In this document: in pieces, positions 1 to 4,850 of the stretch | How the letters are laid out: every line of letters begins with the position of its first letter | Position numbering within the stretch: the stretch's first letter is position 1 | Assembly: GCA_945875915.1 (NCBI GenBank) | Contig: CAMCMT010000011.1 | Span: 1 to 64,000 of the forward strand | Source of the DNA: Synechococcus sp. UW140 | GTDB taxonomy: Bacteria > Cyanobacteriota > Cyanobacteriia > PCC-6307 > Cyanobiaceae | DNA length: 64,000 nt | Direction: 5' to 3' | Position numbers and translations under genes: made by a program | The notes under the pieces: generated by a model | Told to the model about the DNA's origin: nothing | Seen by the model: the letters and a program-made list of their open reading frames with translations, nothing else | Databases searched by the model: none

Positions 1-87
1 TTCTCGGAACTGTCGATGGCCAAGCTGGACAAGACCAGCGAATCGGTTCAAGATCAATCAACAGCTGCATTTGCCGCAGCTGCCTGA
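1..87 (+). CDS. 3' end of an unidentified gene (partial)
   Basis: The reading frame is open from the first base and ends at TGA (85-87), giving the last 28 residues of a protein that starts outside the window. The tail is hydrophilic and ends in an Ala-rich stretch (AAFAAAA). Nothing in it identifies a family. It is in a different frame from the ADO-like gene that follows, so it is not that gene's missing N-terminus. A short inverted repeat follows directly at its stop codon. Confidence 0.45.
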   Translation, partial: FSELSMAKLDKTSESVQDQSTAAFAAAA

Positions 88-109
88 TCACTGATCTCCG
101 ATCAGATCA
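85..109. terminator. Short inverted repeat after the first stop codon
   Basis: TGATC (85-89) can pair with GATCA (105-109), and CTGAT (91-95) with ATCAG (101-105). No T-run follows, so it is a weak terminator candidate. It lies between the partial gene and the ADO-like gene. Confidence 0.2.
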
Positions 110-157
110 CAGGCCTCGGCTTTTACACCACTCCAAGGGACGCAACCCATCAACGCC

Positions 158-781
158 ATGGTGATCGTGGGCGAGGGCCTGGCGGATCGCCACTTCCGCC
201 TGCTCGCCGATGCGATCCCAGAGGATGCCGAAAGACTCCAGGTGTTGGCTGCCATGGAGGGGCGCCATGCCCGGGACTTTGTCGGCTGCGGCGTCCACTT
301 GGGCGTTAAGCCCGATGTTCCCCTGGCCCGCACCCTGTTTGCGCCCCTCCATGCCCTGTTTCTTGAGGCGAGCCGCGCCGGCGATCGGGTGGCCTGCCTG
401 GTGATTCAATGCCTGATCGTGGAAAGCTTTGCCGTGGCGGCCTATCGCTGCTACCTGCCGGTGGCCGATGTCTACGCCAGGCCGATCACGGCCGAGGTGC
501 TCAAGGATGAGGCCCTGCACCTCACCTACGGCGAAGACTGGCTGCGCCCCCGCTTCCAGGCGGTGGCAGAGGAGGTGGTGGCCTGTTGCCGCCGGGCCCT
601 GCCCGTGGTCCTAGGGATGCTGGAGCGACTCAAGCCCGATCTAGACACGATTGGCATTGCACCGGTGGAGCTGATGGGGGAATTCATAGCCTGTTTCCAG
701 GAGTCGCTCGTGGCCATTGGCTTCAACCCCGCCCACTCCCGCCGGGTGCTCAGCGAATTGGCGGCCGCGGCCCTGGCCTGA
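158..781 (+). CDS. Divergent aldehyde-deformylating oxygenase (ADO) paralogue, ferritin-like di-iron protein
   Basis: ADO converts fatty aldehydes to alkanes plus formate, after acyl-ACP reductase. From ATG 158 the protein has 207 residues against about 231 to 243 in the family. The six di-iron ligands are all present with the family spacing: E6, E34, H37, E89, E118 and H121 (gaps 28, 3, 52, 29, 3). The C-terminus (GFNP...AAAALA) also matches. The homology extends upstream of the ATG: the codons before it read PINA, matching the RINA segment of known ADOs. That frame is open only back to TGA 92-94 and has no ATG, GTG or TTG, so the true start is unclear or the N-terminus has been lost. No acyl-ACP reductase gene is next to it, so this may be a second, diverged copy. 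Family assignment is firm; activity is not. Confidence 0.8.
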   Translation: MVIVGEGLADRHFRLLADAIPEDAERLQVLAAMEGRHARDFVGCGVHLGVKPDVPLARTLFAPLHALFLEASRAGDRVACLVIQCLIVESFAVAAYRCYLPVADVYARPITAEVLKDEALHLTYGEDWLRPRFQAVAEEVVACCRRALPVVLGMLERLKPDLDTIGIAPVELMGEFIACFQESLVAIGFNPAHSRRVLSELAAAALA

Positions 782-793
782 GGGCCAGTGGCT

Positions 794-1024
794 TCAGAAG
801 CGCAGCAGCCGTTGGCGGCGCCAGCGCTGTAGGGCGATCACGGTCCACACCGCTTCGGCAATCGCAAAGGGCCAGGCCCCCTGCAGCAGGGCGTAAATGC
901 CGGAGCTAAAACTGCCCCCCGCAAAAATCAACACCCACACCGGACCCCGTTCTTCCAGGGCGTAGGCCAGCAAGGTGATGGCTACGCAAATTAGTCCGAA
1001 GCTATCCAGTTGCGGCGAACCCAT
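794..1024 (-). CDS. Small membrane protein, CBU_0592-like
   Basis: A 76-residue protein with two or three predicted membrane segments (around residues 8-25, 28-45 and 48-65) and a basic C-terminus (RWRRQRLLRF). The segment WPFAIAEAVWTVIAL resembles the conserved end of the CBU_0592 family of small membrane proteins of unknown function. I chose ATG at 1024 because the residues encoded further upstream are not membrane-like and run through a 28-bp palindrome. It converges on the ADO-like gene with a 12-bp gap. Confidence 0.6.
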   Translation of the reverse strand: MGSPQLDSFGLICVAITLLAYALEERGPVWVLIFAGGSFSSGIYALLQGAWPFAIAEAVWTVIALQRWRRQRLLRF

Positions 1025-1912: not shown

Positions 1913-2365
1913 TCAGTGGCGCGTCCTGGAGCCACCGGTGGCAAGGTCGGCGAGCGGGGGCGGCGAGGGTAGGGTTTGGGCCTTGGCCGCCAGGCTGGCC
2001 TGATCGAGGTCCGCCGCAGCGCTCACCACGCCGCCGAAACGCAGTTGCAGCCAGGTGATCACGCCGGTTTCTAGGGCGGCGATCCCTTCCTGGTCGCGGC
2101 CGCCCAGCCCCAGGCTGACCAGCAGGAACGGGGGCAGGTACCAGAGCTGGGCGTCACCACCGGCATGACTGCCATCACCATGGCCGCGCCGCTCCTGGAT
2201 CAGTTCGCGCAATTGGCCATCGCCACTGAGCTGGCCTAAGGGCGCCAGCAACAGCAGGGGTGTTTGGCTCTCCGCAGCCTGGCCGAGATGGGCTTGGGGG
2301 TTGGGGCTGGGGGGATCGGCCTGGACCGGCGCAGCGACGGAGTCCAGGGACTGGTTTGCAACCAT
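1913..2365 (-). CDS. Conserved hypothetical protein, divergent from heme oxygenase
   Basis: 150 residues from ATG 2365. The sequence has leucine-rich hydrophobic stretches (TPLLLLAPLGQ; LWYLPPFLLVSLGLGG), then GITWLQLRFGG-like text, and no motif that I recognise. The frame is open far upstream, but the sequence before this ATG is GC-rich and unconvincing. It is transcribed away from hemO with 88 bp between the two starts, so the genes may share a control region. It lacks the winged-helix pattern of the MarR-type ChlR activator known to control low-oxygen tetrapyrrole genes. Confidence 0.5.
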   Translation of the reverse strand: MVANQSLDSVAAPVQADPPSPNPQAHLGQAAESQTPLLLLAPLGQLSGDGQLRELIQERRGHGDGSHAGGDAQLWYLPPFLLVSLGLGGRDQEGIAALETGVITWLQLRFGGVVSAAADLDQASLAAKAQTLPSPPPLADLATGGSRTRH

Positions 2366-2453: not shown

Positions 2454-3269
2454 ATGACCAACCTTCCGACACCCGTAACCGCCCCCGATGCCGTCGCCGG
2501 CCCTGGGACCAGGGCTTCTGGCGCAAACGGCGTCGAGGCGATCTCGACCCATGCCAATGGGGCCGATCGGGCCCAGCGCCAGGTTCTTGGCCCCCGGCTG
2601 CGGCGCCTCCATGCCCGCATCGGCGCCGCCCATCGCCAGGCCGAGGGCATGGCCTTTTCGCGGGCCCTGTTAGCGGGCCAGGTGGAACCGCTGCAACTGG
2701 TGGCCCTGCTGCGGGCCCTGGCCCCTGGCTACCGCCTGCTCGAACAGGAGGGCCCCGCCTTGGCCGCCGCCCTCGGCGCCCAGGCCTTCCCCTGGAGCGA
2801 CCTGGCCCGCAGCCCCGCCCTGGAGCGCGATGCCGCCCAATTAGCCGCCATCGAGGCCAGCCCACCCTCGGCCGCGGCGGCCATCTGGCTGGAGCAGCTG
2901 CGCAGCCTGGCCCGCCAGGCCCCCCACCGCTTCCTGGCCCACGTCTACGTGCGCTACGGCGGTGACCTCTCCGGTGGCCAGCAGCTGGCGGAACAGGCCA
3001 ACGCCATTTTGGCGAGCCGGGGCCTGCCGTCGGTGCGCTTTTGGGCCTTCGAACGGCCGGTGCGGGAGCTCAAAGATGGGCTACACGCGGCCTTTGAACA
3101 GCTCGAGCTCTCCGAGGCCGAGGAGGACGAGCTGCTGGAGGAAGCCGAAATCGCCTTCCGCGCCACCCAGAGCTTGCTAGCCGAGCTGGCGGAGTTGGTC
3201 CCAGGCACCGCCACCGGTTCGGCCACCGCCACCGCAGTTGCCTCCGCCACCCCCCCTGCCACCGCCTAG
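2454..3269 (+). CDS. Heme oxygenase (divergent, HO2-like)
   Basis: Heme oxygenase opens heme to biliverdin IX-alpha, CO and iron, using ferredoxin; this is the first step toward phycobilins. The protein has 271 residues. An N-terminal tail of about 45 residues is followed by the proximal histidine region (AAHRQAEGMAF) and the distal-helix signature YVRYGGDLSGGQ, with the usual all-helical spacing. It is more diverged than the usual cyanobacterial HO1, and its C-terminus is Ala/Thr/Pro-rich. It stands just before hemN. A heme oxygenase next to an oxygen-independent HemN is the arrangement of the low-oxygen tetrapyrrole cluster of other cyanobacteria, so it may be the HO2-type enzyme. A main HO1 would be elsewhere. 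Confidence 0.85.
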   Translation: MTNLPTPVTAPDAVAGPGTRASGANGVEAISTHANGADRAQRQVLGPRLRRLHARIGAAHRQAEGMAFSRALLAGQVEPLQLVALLRALAPGYRLLEQEGPALAAALGAQAFPWSDLARSPALERDAAQLAAIEASPPSAAAAIWLEQLRSLARQAPHRFLAHVYVRYGGDLSGGQQLAEQANAILASRGLPSVRFWAFERPVRELKDGLHAAFEQLELSEAEEDELLEEAEIAFRATQSLLAELAELVPGTATGSATATAVASATPPATA

Positions 3270-3392
3270 GCCGCCAACGCCCCCCCAGGGGCGTCCTGAT
3301 GGGCGCTGGCCTGGGGCTTGTCGAGGGGCCAGCAGGCCGTTTCAGCGCCCCATCCCTTAGGTCCTCTCCCCGCTCGCTTGCCGATTCGCCCG

Positions 3393-4850
3393 ATGCCCCC
3401 AGCCACCAGCGCTCCGGCCACCGTTGCCACGACGACGGCCCCCTCGCCTCCTGCCACCGGAGCAGCAGGGACCGATCCCGTTGGCCGCCCAGCCCCGTCC
3501 AGGCCACCCCAGAGCAGCCCCCTGCAGCTGCTGCTCAAATACGACAAGCCCGTGCCCCGCTACACCAGCTACCCCACGGCGGCCCAGTTCCACAGCGGTG
3601 TCGGGCCGGCGGATCTGGCGGCCCAGCTGGCCCGGCCCAGCGAGGAGCCCCTTTCGCTCTACGTGCATGTGCCCTTCTGCCGCCATGCCTGTTGGTATTG
3701 CGGCTGCACCCGCATCACCACCCAACTGGGCTCGAAGGTGGTGGCCCCCTACCTGAAATCCCTGCAACTGGAGTTGGAGCTGATCGCAGGCCTGCTGCCC
3801 CAGCGGCGGCGCCTGGCCCAGTTGCACTGGGGCGGCGGCACGCCCAATTACCTCAACGCCGAGGAGCAGAGCCAGCTCTGGAATTTGGTCACCCGCCATT
3901 TCGATCTGGAGCCCAAGTTGGAGGCCTCGATTGAGGTCAACCCAGAATTCATCGATCAAGCCCAAGCCCTGCACCTGCGGGCCCTGGGCTTCAACCGCAT
4001 CAGCTTCGGCATCCAGGACGCCGATCCCGATGTGCAGCGGGCGGTAAACCGGGTGGTGCCGGTGGAGCAGCTGCGGCGGGTGATGGGCTGGCTGCGGGAA
4101 GCCCGCTTTGAGAGCGTCAACGTGGACCTGATCTGCGGCCTGCCGCGCCAGACCCCGGAGCGGTTCCACACCACCTTGGAACTAGTGCGCGAACTGCGTC
4201 CCGAACGCATCTCCCTGTTTTCCTTCGCCTACTTGCCCCAGCAGCTACCCCTGCAACGCAAGATCGCCGCCGCCGACCTCCCCAGCCAGCGGCAGCGCCT
4301 GGCCATGCTCGATGACGCCAGCCAGCTCCTGGGCGCCGCCGGCTACGAGGCGATTGGCATGGATCACTACGCCCTGGCCAGCGACAGCTTGGCCATCGCC
4401 GCCCGCGAAGGCCGCCTACATCGCAATTTCCAGGGCTACACCACCGGCGGCGAGCTTGACCTACTCGGCCTCGGCCCTTCGGCGATCAGCCAGTTCCCCC
4501 ATCTGTTCAGCCAGAACCAGCGCCAGCTCAACGGCTACAACGCTGCCCTAGATGCCGGCCAGCTCCCGGTGGAGCGGGGCTTGGCGGTGTTGGAGCAGGA
4601 GGTGTTGGAACGGCGCGCCCTGATTCGCGAAGTGATGTGTCACTTCCGGGTGGAATTGGAGCTGGACCGCTTTGCCAGCGAATGGAGCGATCTGCTGGCC
4701 CTCGCCGCCGATGGCCTGGTGACCCTGAGCCAAAACGGTGACCTGGGCCTGGTGGAGGTGACTACTGAGGGCCGCTGGTTGATCCGCACGATTGCGGCGG
4801 TTTTTGATCCCAGCCAGAGGGAGCGGGCCAGGGGCTCTAGGTTGATTTAG
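3393..4850 (+). CDS. hemN: Oxygen-independent coproporphyrinogen III oxidase (radical SAM)
   Basis: HemN oxidatively decarboxylates coproporphyrinogen III to protoporphyrinogen IX without oxygen. The radical-SAM cluster motif CRHACWYCGC (CX3CX2C plus the extra HemN cysteine) is at about residues 96-105. It is preceded by the HemN start block KYDKPVPRYTSYPTA and followed by the SAM-binding GGGTP. I chose ATG 3393 (485 residues); an upstream TTG at 3318 would add 25 residues and is less likely. The first 40 or so residues are a Pro/Ala/Thr-rich tail absent from the E. coli enzyme. The gene is 123 bp after the heme oxygenase gene on the same strand, probably as an operon for micro-oxic pigment synthesis. 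Confidence 0.92.
   Translation: MPPATSAPATVATTTAPSPPATGAAGTDPVGRPAPSRPPQSSPLQLLLKYDKPVPRYTSYPTAAQFHSGVGPADLAAQLARPSEEPLSLYVHVPFCRHACWYCGCTRITTQLGSKVVAPYLKSLQLELELIAGLLPQRRRLAQLHWGGGTPNYLNAEEQSQLWNLVTRHFDLEPKLEASIEVNPEFIDQAQALHLRALGFNRISFGIQDADPDVQRAVNRVVPVEQLRRVMGWLREARFESVNVDLICGLPRQTPERFHTTLELVRELRPERISLFSFAYLPQQLPLQRKIAAADLPSQRQRLAMLDDASQLLGAAGYEAIGMDHYALASDSLAIAAREGRLHRNFQGYTTGGELDLLGLGPSAISQFPHLFSQNQRQLNGYNAALDAGQLPVERGLAVLEQEVLERRALIREVMCHFRVELELDRFASEWSDLLALAADGLVTLSQNGDLGLVEVTTEGRWLIRTIAAVFDPSQRERARGSRLI

Follow-up and report, generated by a model that had tools for sequence, protein, structure and literature searches.

The window, the first 64,000 nucleotides of contig C11 in the assembly of Synechococcus sp. 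UW140 (92 contigs, 99.94% complete), starts next to a gene of the alkane-synthesis (ADO) family whose beginning is hard to place. The open stretch of its frame (+2) extends from 95 to 781, directly after a TGA at 92 to 94, and no in-frame ATG, GTG, or TTG lies between that stop and the ATG at 158, just as the preliminary description of this DNA had stated. That description weighed an unusual start against a new protein that had lost its N terminus, and it supposed that a second ADO with other substrates would be new. The locus raises the questions of where the gene begins and what its intact form does.

The truncated ado2 gene

The gene, here called ado2 for the second ADO, has the following coordinates.

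149..781, plus strand: 5'-truncated ado2, codons I24 to stop, identified by ortholog identity and PF11266
158..781, plus strand: longest remaining open reading frame with an ordinary start, 207 amino acids, beginning inside helix 1

The encoded protein matched Pfam family PF11266 (Ald_deCOase) with an E value of 1.6e-56 and 192 bits (cut-off, 28). Numbered from ATG 158, residues E6, E34, H37, E89, E118, and H121 correspond in the alignment to E32, E60, H63, E115, E144, and H147 of the Synechococcus elongatus PCC 7942 enzyme (SeADO), and these six di-iron ligands are invariant in 39/39 ADO2 and 54/54 canonical sequences; the complete di-iron site at ADO spacing was thus described correctly. From the junction onward, the protein is 90, 86, and 87% identical to its intact orthologs in three close relatives (loci L004, L005, and L006). 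This homology begins exactly at base 148, which completes the Arg23 codon and precedes I24. The homology noticed at 'PINA' before the ATG is real and reaches back only to base 148, and upstream of it there is transposon DNA instead of further homology. The open frame and the ADO homology at 95 to 781 also stand, but position 95 is the wrong gene start, because everything before base 148 is insertion sequence DNA and the true gene runs from base 148/149.

An insertion sequence at the start of the contig

The first bases of the window and the junction were assigned as follows.

1..147, plus strand: IS256-family insertion sequence, right end; the first base of contig C11 falls within the element
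1-87, plus strand: C-terminal tail of the transposase (TGA at 85-87), matching the tail in full-length relatives
122..147, plus strand: right terminal inverted repeat; 20 to 21 of 26 bases match the inverted left end of the full copies in genomes G081, G190, and G158
148..155, no strand: CATCAACG, presumed 8-bp target-site duplication within ado2 codons R23 to A26, by comparison with the 8-bp duplications of the element elsewhere

The same genome has bases 1 to 147 at four further contig ends (C8, C37, and C45 at their starts and C37 also at its end). The recurring right ends are 100% identical over 144 to 147 bases and are followed by a different flank each time, from the same base onward. 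Relatives in G081, G190, G158, and other genomes are 82 to 93% identical (full copies, 82 to 91%) and measure 1,450 to 1,459 bp where both ends could be located. They encode a transposase of about 416 amino acids with the tail '...VFSEQSMAKLDNTSEPVQD', assigned to Transposase_mut (PF00872) on the full-length relative from G190, and they carry imperfect inverted repeats of ~26 bp (20 to 21 of 26 bases) and 8-bp target duplications (GGGATGAT in G081 and ATGGAGTG in G190). Judged from its sequence, the element is a multicopy IS256-family insertion sequence, sharing transposase family, inverted repeats, and 8-bp duplication through its full relatives, whereas the window holds the right end only. 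A PF00872 profile search of the source genome found no assembled transposase body. As the copies are identical, the element has been active recently.

The junction is found at a contig end, where the 147 bp of repeat equal the reach of other contigs into it. The contig end could accordingly have been wrongly extended into the repeat by the assembly, leaving the true gene intact. We give this reading little credence. All five right ends stop at one base, and the left end of the element is present at nine contig ends of the source genome, with three right/left pairs of contig ends joined by identical 8-bp duplications (C21/C45, CCTTGACC; C1/C37, GCCTTGGC; C37/C49, AATCTGAC). Such exact pairing speaks against an artifact, which would not produce it. 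In addition, an intact N-terminal piece occurs nowhere else in the 99.94%-complete assembly.

The insertion reading has evidence against it as well. The left partner of the ado2 insertion, CATCAACG before the left end of the element, was not found in the assembly, and a genome-wide search by DNA similarity and pattern did not recover the first 23 ado2 codons. Their absence points either to a neighboring deletion or to a piece of ~200 bp between two mobile elements that was not assembled. The gene order at L005 and L006 is acsF, desaturase, ado2. In the source genome, acsF and the desaturase lie on contig C47 (locus L057), where the desaturase is cut as follows.

L057:48-1010, minus strand: desaturase, broken off close to its 3' end, at one end of another multicopy element

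The end of this second element occurs with 100% identity at three further contig ends; one such copy, on C38, adjoins istA/istB-like genes, and from that gene order the element is probably IS21-like. By synteny, C47 and C11 would be neighbors. The unrecovered piece between the two elements comprises the end of the desaturase, the spacer, and the first 23 codons of ado2. With ado2 and the desaturase each interrupted, the low-oxygen gene cluster described below is broken twice in this genome.

Intact orthologs and the effect of the truncation

ADO2 proteins at L004, L005, L006, and other loci start at an ordinary ATG and read 'MTxTI...YxxAYSRIN' (in these three, MTxTI..PDYSSAAYLDAYSRINAMV or near that). 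The proposal of an unusual start did not survive this comparison, since the orthologs begin at ATG and the end of the element abuts codon 23/24. Translation from the end of the element would have to begin before codon 24 at a noncanonical codon (ACG or ATC), for which the frame is indeed open from 95 to 158. This is extremely unlikely: the stretch is transposon DNA common to unrelated sites, and the true N terminus is known from the orthologs. An unusual start codon was therefore rejected. A transposase-ado fusion as a new N terminus was also considered and rejected, as the transposase frame ends at 85 to 87 and the stop of the ado frame lies at 92 to 94. The window copy is a recent insertion mutant, and it has no start codon because the insertion sequence removed the first ~23 codons.

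The missing codons specify the lid residues Y17 and Y21 together with the first part of helix 1. In SeADO, helix 1 spans S16 to M45, and Y17 and Y21 close the substrate channel (PMC4286721). Both tyrosines are nearly invariant across ADO2, and the complete helix 1 with its channel lid is present in the orthologs and absent from the window copy. AlphaFold predicted a first helix of 31 residues for the intact L004 protein (mean pLDDT, 95.8) and of 12 residues for the product from ATG 158 (mean pLDDT, 88.4). In the latter, the first 10 residues had a mean pLDDT of 65, and residues 1 to 7, including the ligand E32 (E6 in the window numbering), were nonhelical.

Several observations count against a loss of function or would suit a shortened working protein translated from ATG 158 (or GTG 161) that has kept the di-iron core for a new role. 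None of the six ligands is missing, the remaining frame is open, the model retains the core fold (mean pLDDT, 88), and none of the residues conserved in at least 95% of ADO2 sequences is changed in the alignment. The intact remainder of the frame, in which no codon is broken, also fits a recent insertion. We consider such a protein improbable. Its start was created by a recent insertion, the element copies being 100% identical; its form is seen in no relative; the ligand E32 falls in the predicted unstructured leader; the channel lid formed by Y17 and Y21 (PMC4286721) is gone; and no sigma-70-type promoter was found for the window gene. Unique amino acid changes numbered 12 in the window copy and 4 in its sister, with 7 and 8 synonymous changes, respectively. 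This comparison for relaxed selection suggests faster amino acid change in the window copy and is not significant (P = 0.15). The new, N-terminally shortened protein of the preliminary description is thus better explained as a gene whose N terminus, intact in the orthologs, was removed by an IS256-family element.

Under the favored reading, an IS256-family element inserted between codons 23 and 24, and the truncated copy would be inactive because it has lost its start, its promoter, and the lid tyrosines Y17 and Y21 and because the E32-bearing helix is without its N-terminal half. The window ado2 is probably a pseudogene, and most likely a dead one. Four other ADO2 copies have been disrupted through internal stops or frameshifts (L026:5881-6378, L027, L028:1448-2148, and G075:C8:41489-41986). 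ADO2 appears to decay repeatedly in other picocyanobacteria, whereas canonical ado apparently does not.

ADO2 is distinct from canonical ADO

On contig C22, the source genome also has a canonical locus in the order ado, aar, accA, so the ado-aar pair that the preliminary description had thought worth looking for is present. In a tree of 94 proteins, all canonical ADOs fell outside a single ADO2 clade (SH-aLRT, 100). No aar was found beside the window gene or at any of 26 related loci, including by tblastn, and aar adjoins most of the canonical ado copies tested. Position away from aar, correctly noted before, is thus a property of the whole ADO2 clade, as the orthologs also have no adjacent aar. 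The orthologs that the preliminary description had envisaged, with a clear upstream start and a neighboring aar, were accordingly found with the ATG and without the aar.

The reported divergence from canonical ADO was confirmed as well. ADO2 shares the ligands, Q110, Y122, D143, and the fold with canonical ADO (TIGR04059; S. elongatus PCC 7942 and Prochlorococcus MIT 9313) but is only about 43% identical to it. Against TIGR04059, the window, L004, and L012 proteins scored 194.4, 213.8, and 211 bits, which do not reach the equivalog cut-off of 222.65, compared with 395.5 bits for the canonical ADO of the source genome. Fixed or nearly fixed differences in the alignment include N38H, Y39F, F86L, N170C, and L191I. 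In SeADO, Y39F alone lowers activity by at most 20% (PMC5356278).

A second ADO is not new. Two ADO homologs per genome were reported in 2014 for, among others, Cyanobium gracile PCC 6307 and Synechococcus strains CB0101 and RS9917 (Coates et al. 2014, PMC3903477), and the second copies of these strains most likely belong to the same clade as ADO2; the passage on them gives no cluster context or function. A structure from within the clade has also been solved. PDB 5ux2, titled 'Protein 19 with aldehyde deformylating oxidase activity from Synechococcus', fell inside ADO2 in the tree and is the nearest solved relative (55% identity; TM, 0.93), with an intact N terminus where the window copy is without its first 23 codons. 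The paper on 5ux2 is presumably 10.1021/acs.biochem.0c00665, which appears in the reference list of PMC9743570. One further record, L021 (CALPNT020000022.1), is titled as a Bifidobacterium breve metagenome-assembled genome and holds cyanobacterial ADO2 and acsF genes; it is probably mislabeled or contaminated.

ADO2 lies within a presumed low-oxygen gene cluster

The genes around ado2, in the window and on contig C47, include the following.

794-1024, minus strand: small hydrophobic protein of 76 amino acids, 'MGSPQLDSFGLICVAITLLAYALEERGPVW', directly downstream of ado2; closest relatives only
1913-2365, minus strand: protein of ~150 amino acids, 'PLLLLAPLGQLSGDGQLRELIQERRG', just before the heme oxygenase gene; conserved in about 21 related loci, with no Pfam match
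2454..3269, plus strand: heme oxygenase (HO2-like), PF01126 E = 7e-25; near ado2 in most related loci
3318..4850, plus strand: hemN, oxygen-independent coproporphyrinogen III oxidase, TIGR00538 471 bits (cut-off, 325)
L057:2189-2635, minus strand: hemerythrin-like protein preceding acsF
L057:2748-3140, plus strand: ArsR-like regulator, divergent, preceding acsF; gene conserved in about 22 loci

Where the contig extends that far, acsF lies upstream of ADO2 within about 3 kb in 24 or 25 of 26 loci. Most of these 26 loci have heme oxygenase on the other side of ado2, with hemN conserved beside it, and several have the desaturase between acsF and ado2. Among 151 genomes of the family, an acsF(II)-type cyclase was found in 22 of 23 genomes with ADO2 and in 19 of 128 without it (Fisher P = 3e-14, a guide only, as related genomes are not independent). 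ADO2 and acsF(II) are at most 1.7 kb apart in all 20 genomes that have both on one contig. The source genome has a second AcsF, 44% identical, on C17.

The acsFII, ho2, and hemN genes occur jointly here, as in a ChlR-type low-oxygen tetrapyrrole cluster. In Synechocystis 6803 and Synechococcus 7002, acsFII-ho2-hemN(-desF) is a low-oxygen cluster under ChlR, whose members are isoforms for micro-oxic conditions and in which desF is essential (PMC4500134). The ADO2 loci have acsF(II), heme oxygenase, hemN, and, in several cases, a desaturase in common with it. They differ in containing ado2, and the cluster of the source genome is interrupted by two insertion sequences. A further difference counts against the low-oxygen reading: unlike the 4Cys ChlR, the divergent regulator adjoining acsF here is ArsR/SmtB-like and has no cysteines. 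This ArsR-like protein might control the cluster in place of ChlR. We found no mention in the literature of an ado gene in an acsFII-ho2-hemN cluster, which is not proof of absence, and the placement of ADO2 there is apparently unreported.

Possible role of intact ADO2

From its position, the simplest reading of ADO2 is a low-oxygen isoform of ADO. AcsFII, HO2, and DesF are low-oxygen isoforms of aerobic counterparts, and ADO uses oxygen too, hence our reading of ADO2 as a low-oxygen isozyme. The intact protein would be an oxygen-dependent aldehyde deformylase that turns fatty aldehydes into alkanes when oxygen is scarce, taking its aldehydes from the AAR encoded beside canonical ado. Intact ADO2 may convert fatty aldehyde to alkane and formate, ADO activity being stated only in the title of the clade member 5ux2.

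An ADO for another aldehyde, for example, one linked to desaturase products or pigment turnover, would agree with the fixed differences around the iron site and the channel (N38H, Y39F, F86L, and L191I), of which F86 has been mutated in studies of the SeADO channel, and with the desaturase that adjoins ADO2 in several loci. This possibility is unlikely, though it deserves some weight. PDB 5ux2, inside the clade, carries ADO activity in its title, and the other O2-using members of the cluster catalyze, as low-oxygen isoforms, the reactions of their counterparts and no new ones (PMC4500134).

We are fairly confident of the overall explanation, in which ado2 was cut at codons 23/24 by a recent IS256-family insertion, the remaining copy would be inactive, and intact ADO2 would be a low-oxygen deformylase. 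There is perhaps an even chance that freshwater picocyanobacteria have a low-oxygen ADO that is encoded within and co-regulated with acsFII-(desaturase)-ho2-hemN and sustains hydrocarbon synthesis under oxygen scarcity, and that the present lineage is losing it through insertion sequences.

The window gene itself is an ordinary insertion mutant, and the ADO2 family is the more important subject. We found no stated reason in the literature for the presence of two ADOs in some cyanobacteria. The association of ADO2 with low-oxygen isoforms of oxygen-using enzymes offers a direct, testable reason, and alkane production might draw on ADO2 for ADOs that use oxygen better. What deserves further attention is the connection of the intact family with low oxygen.
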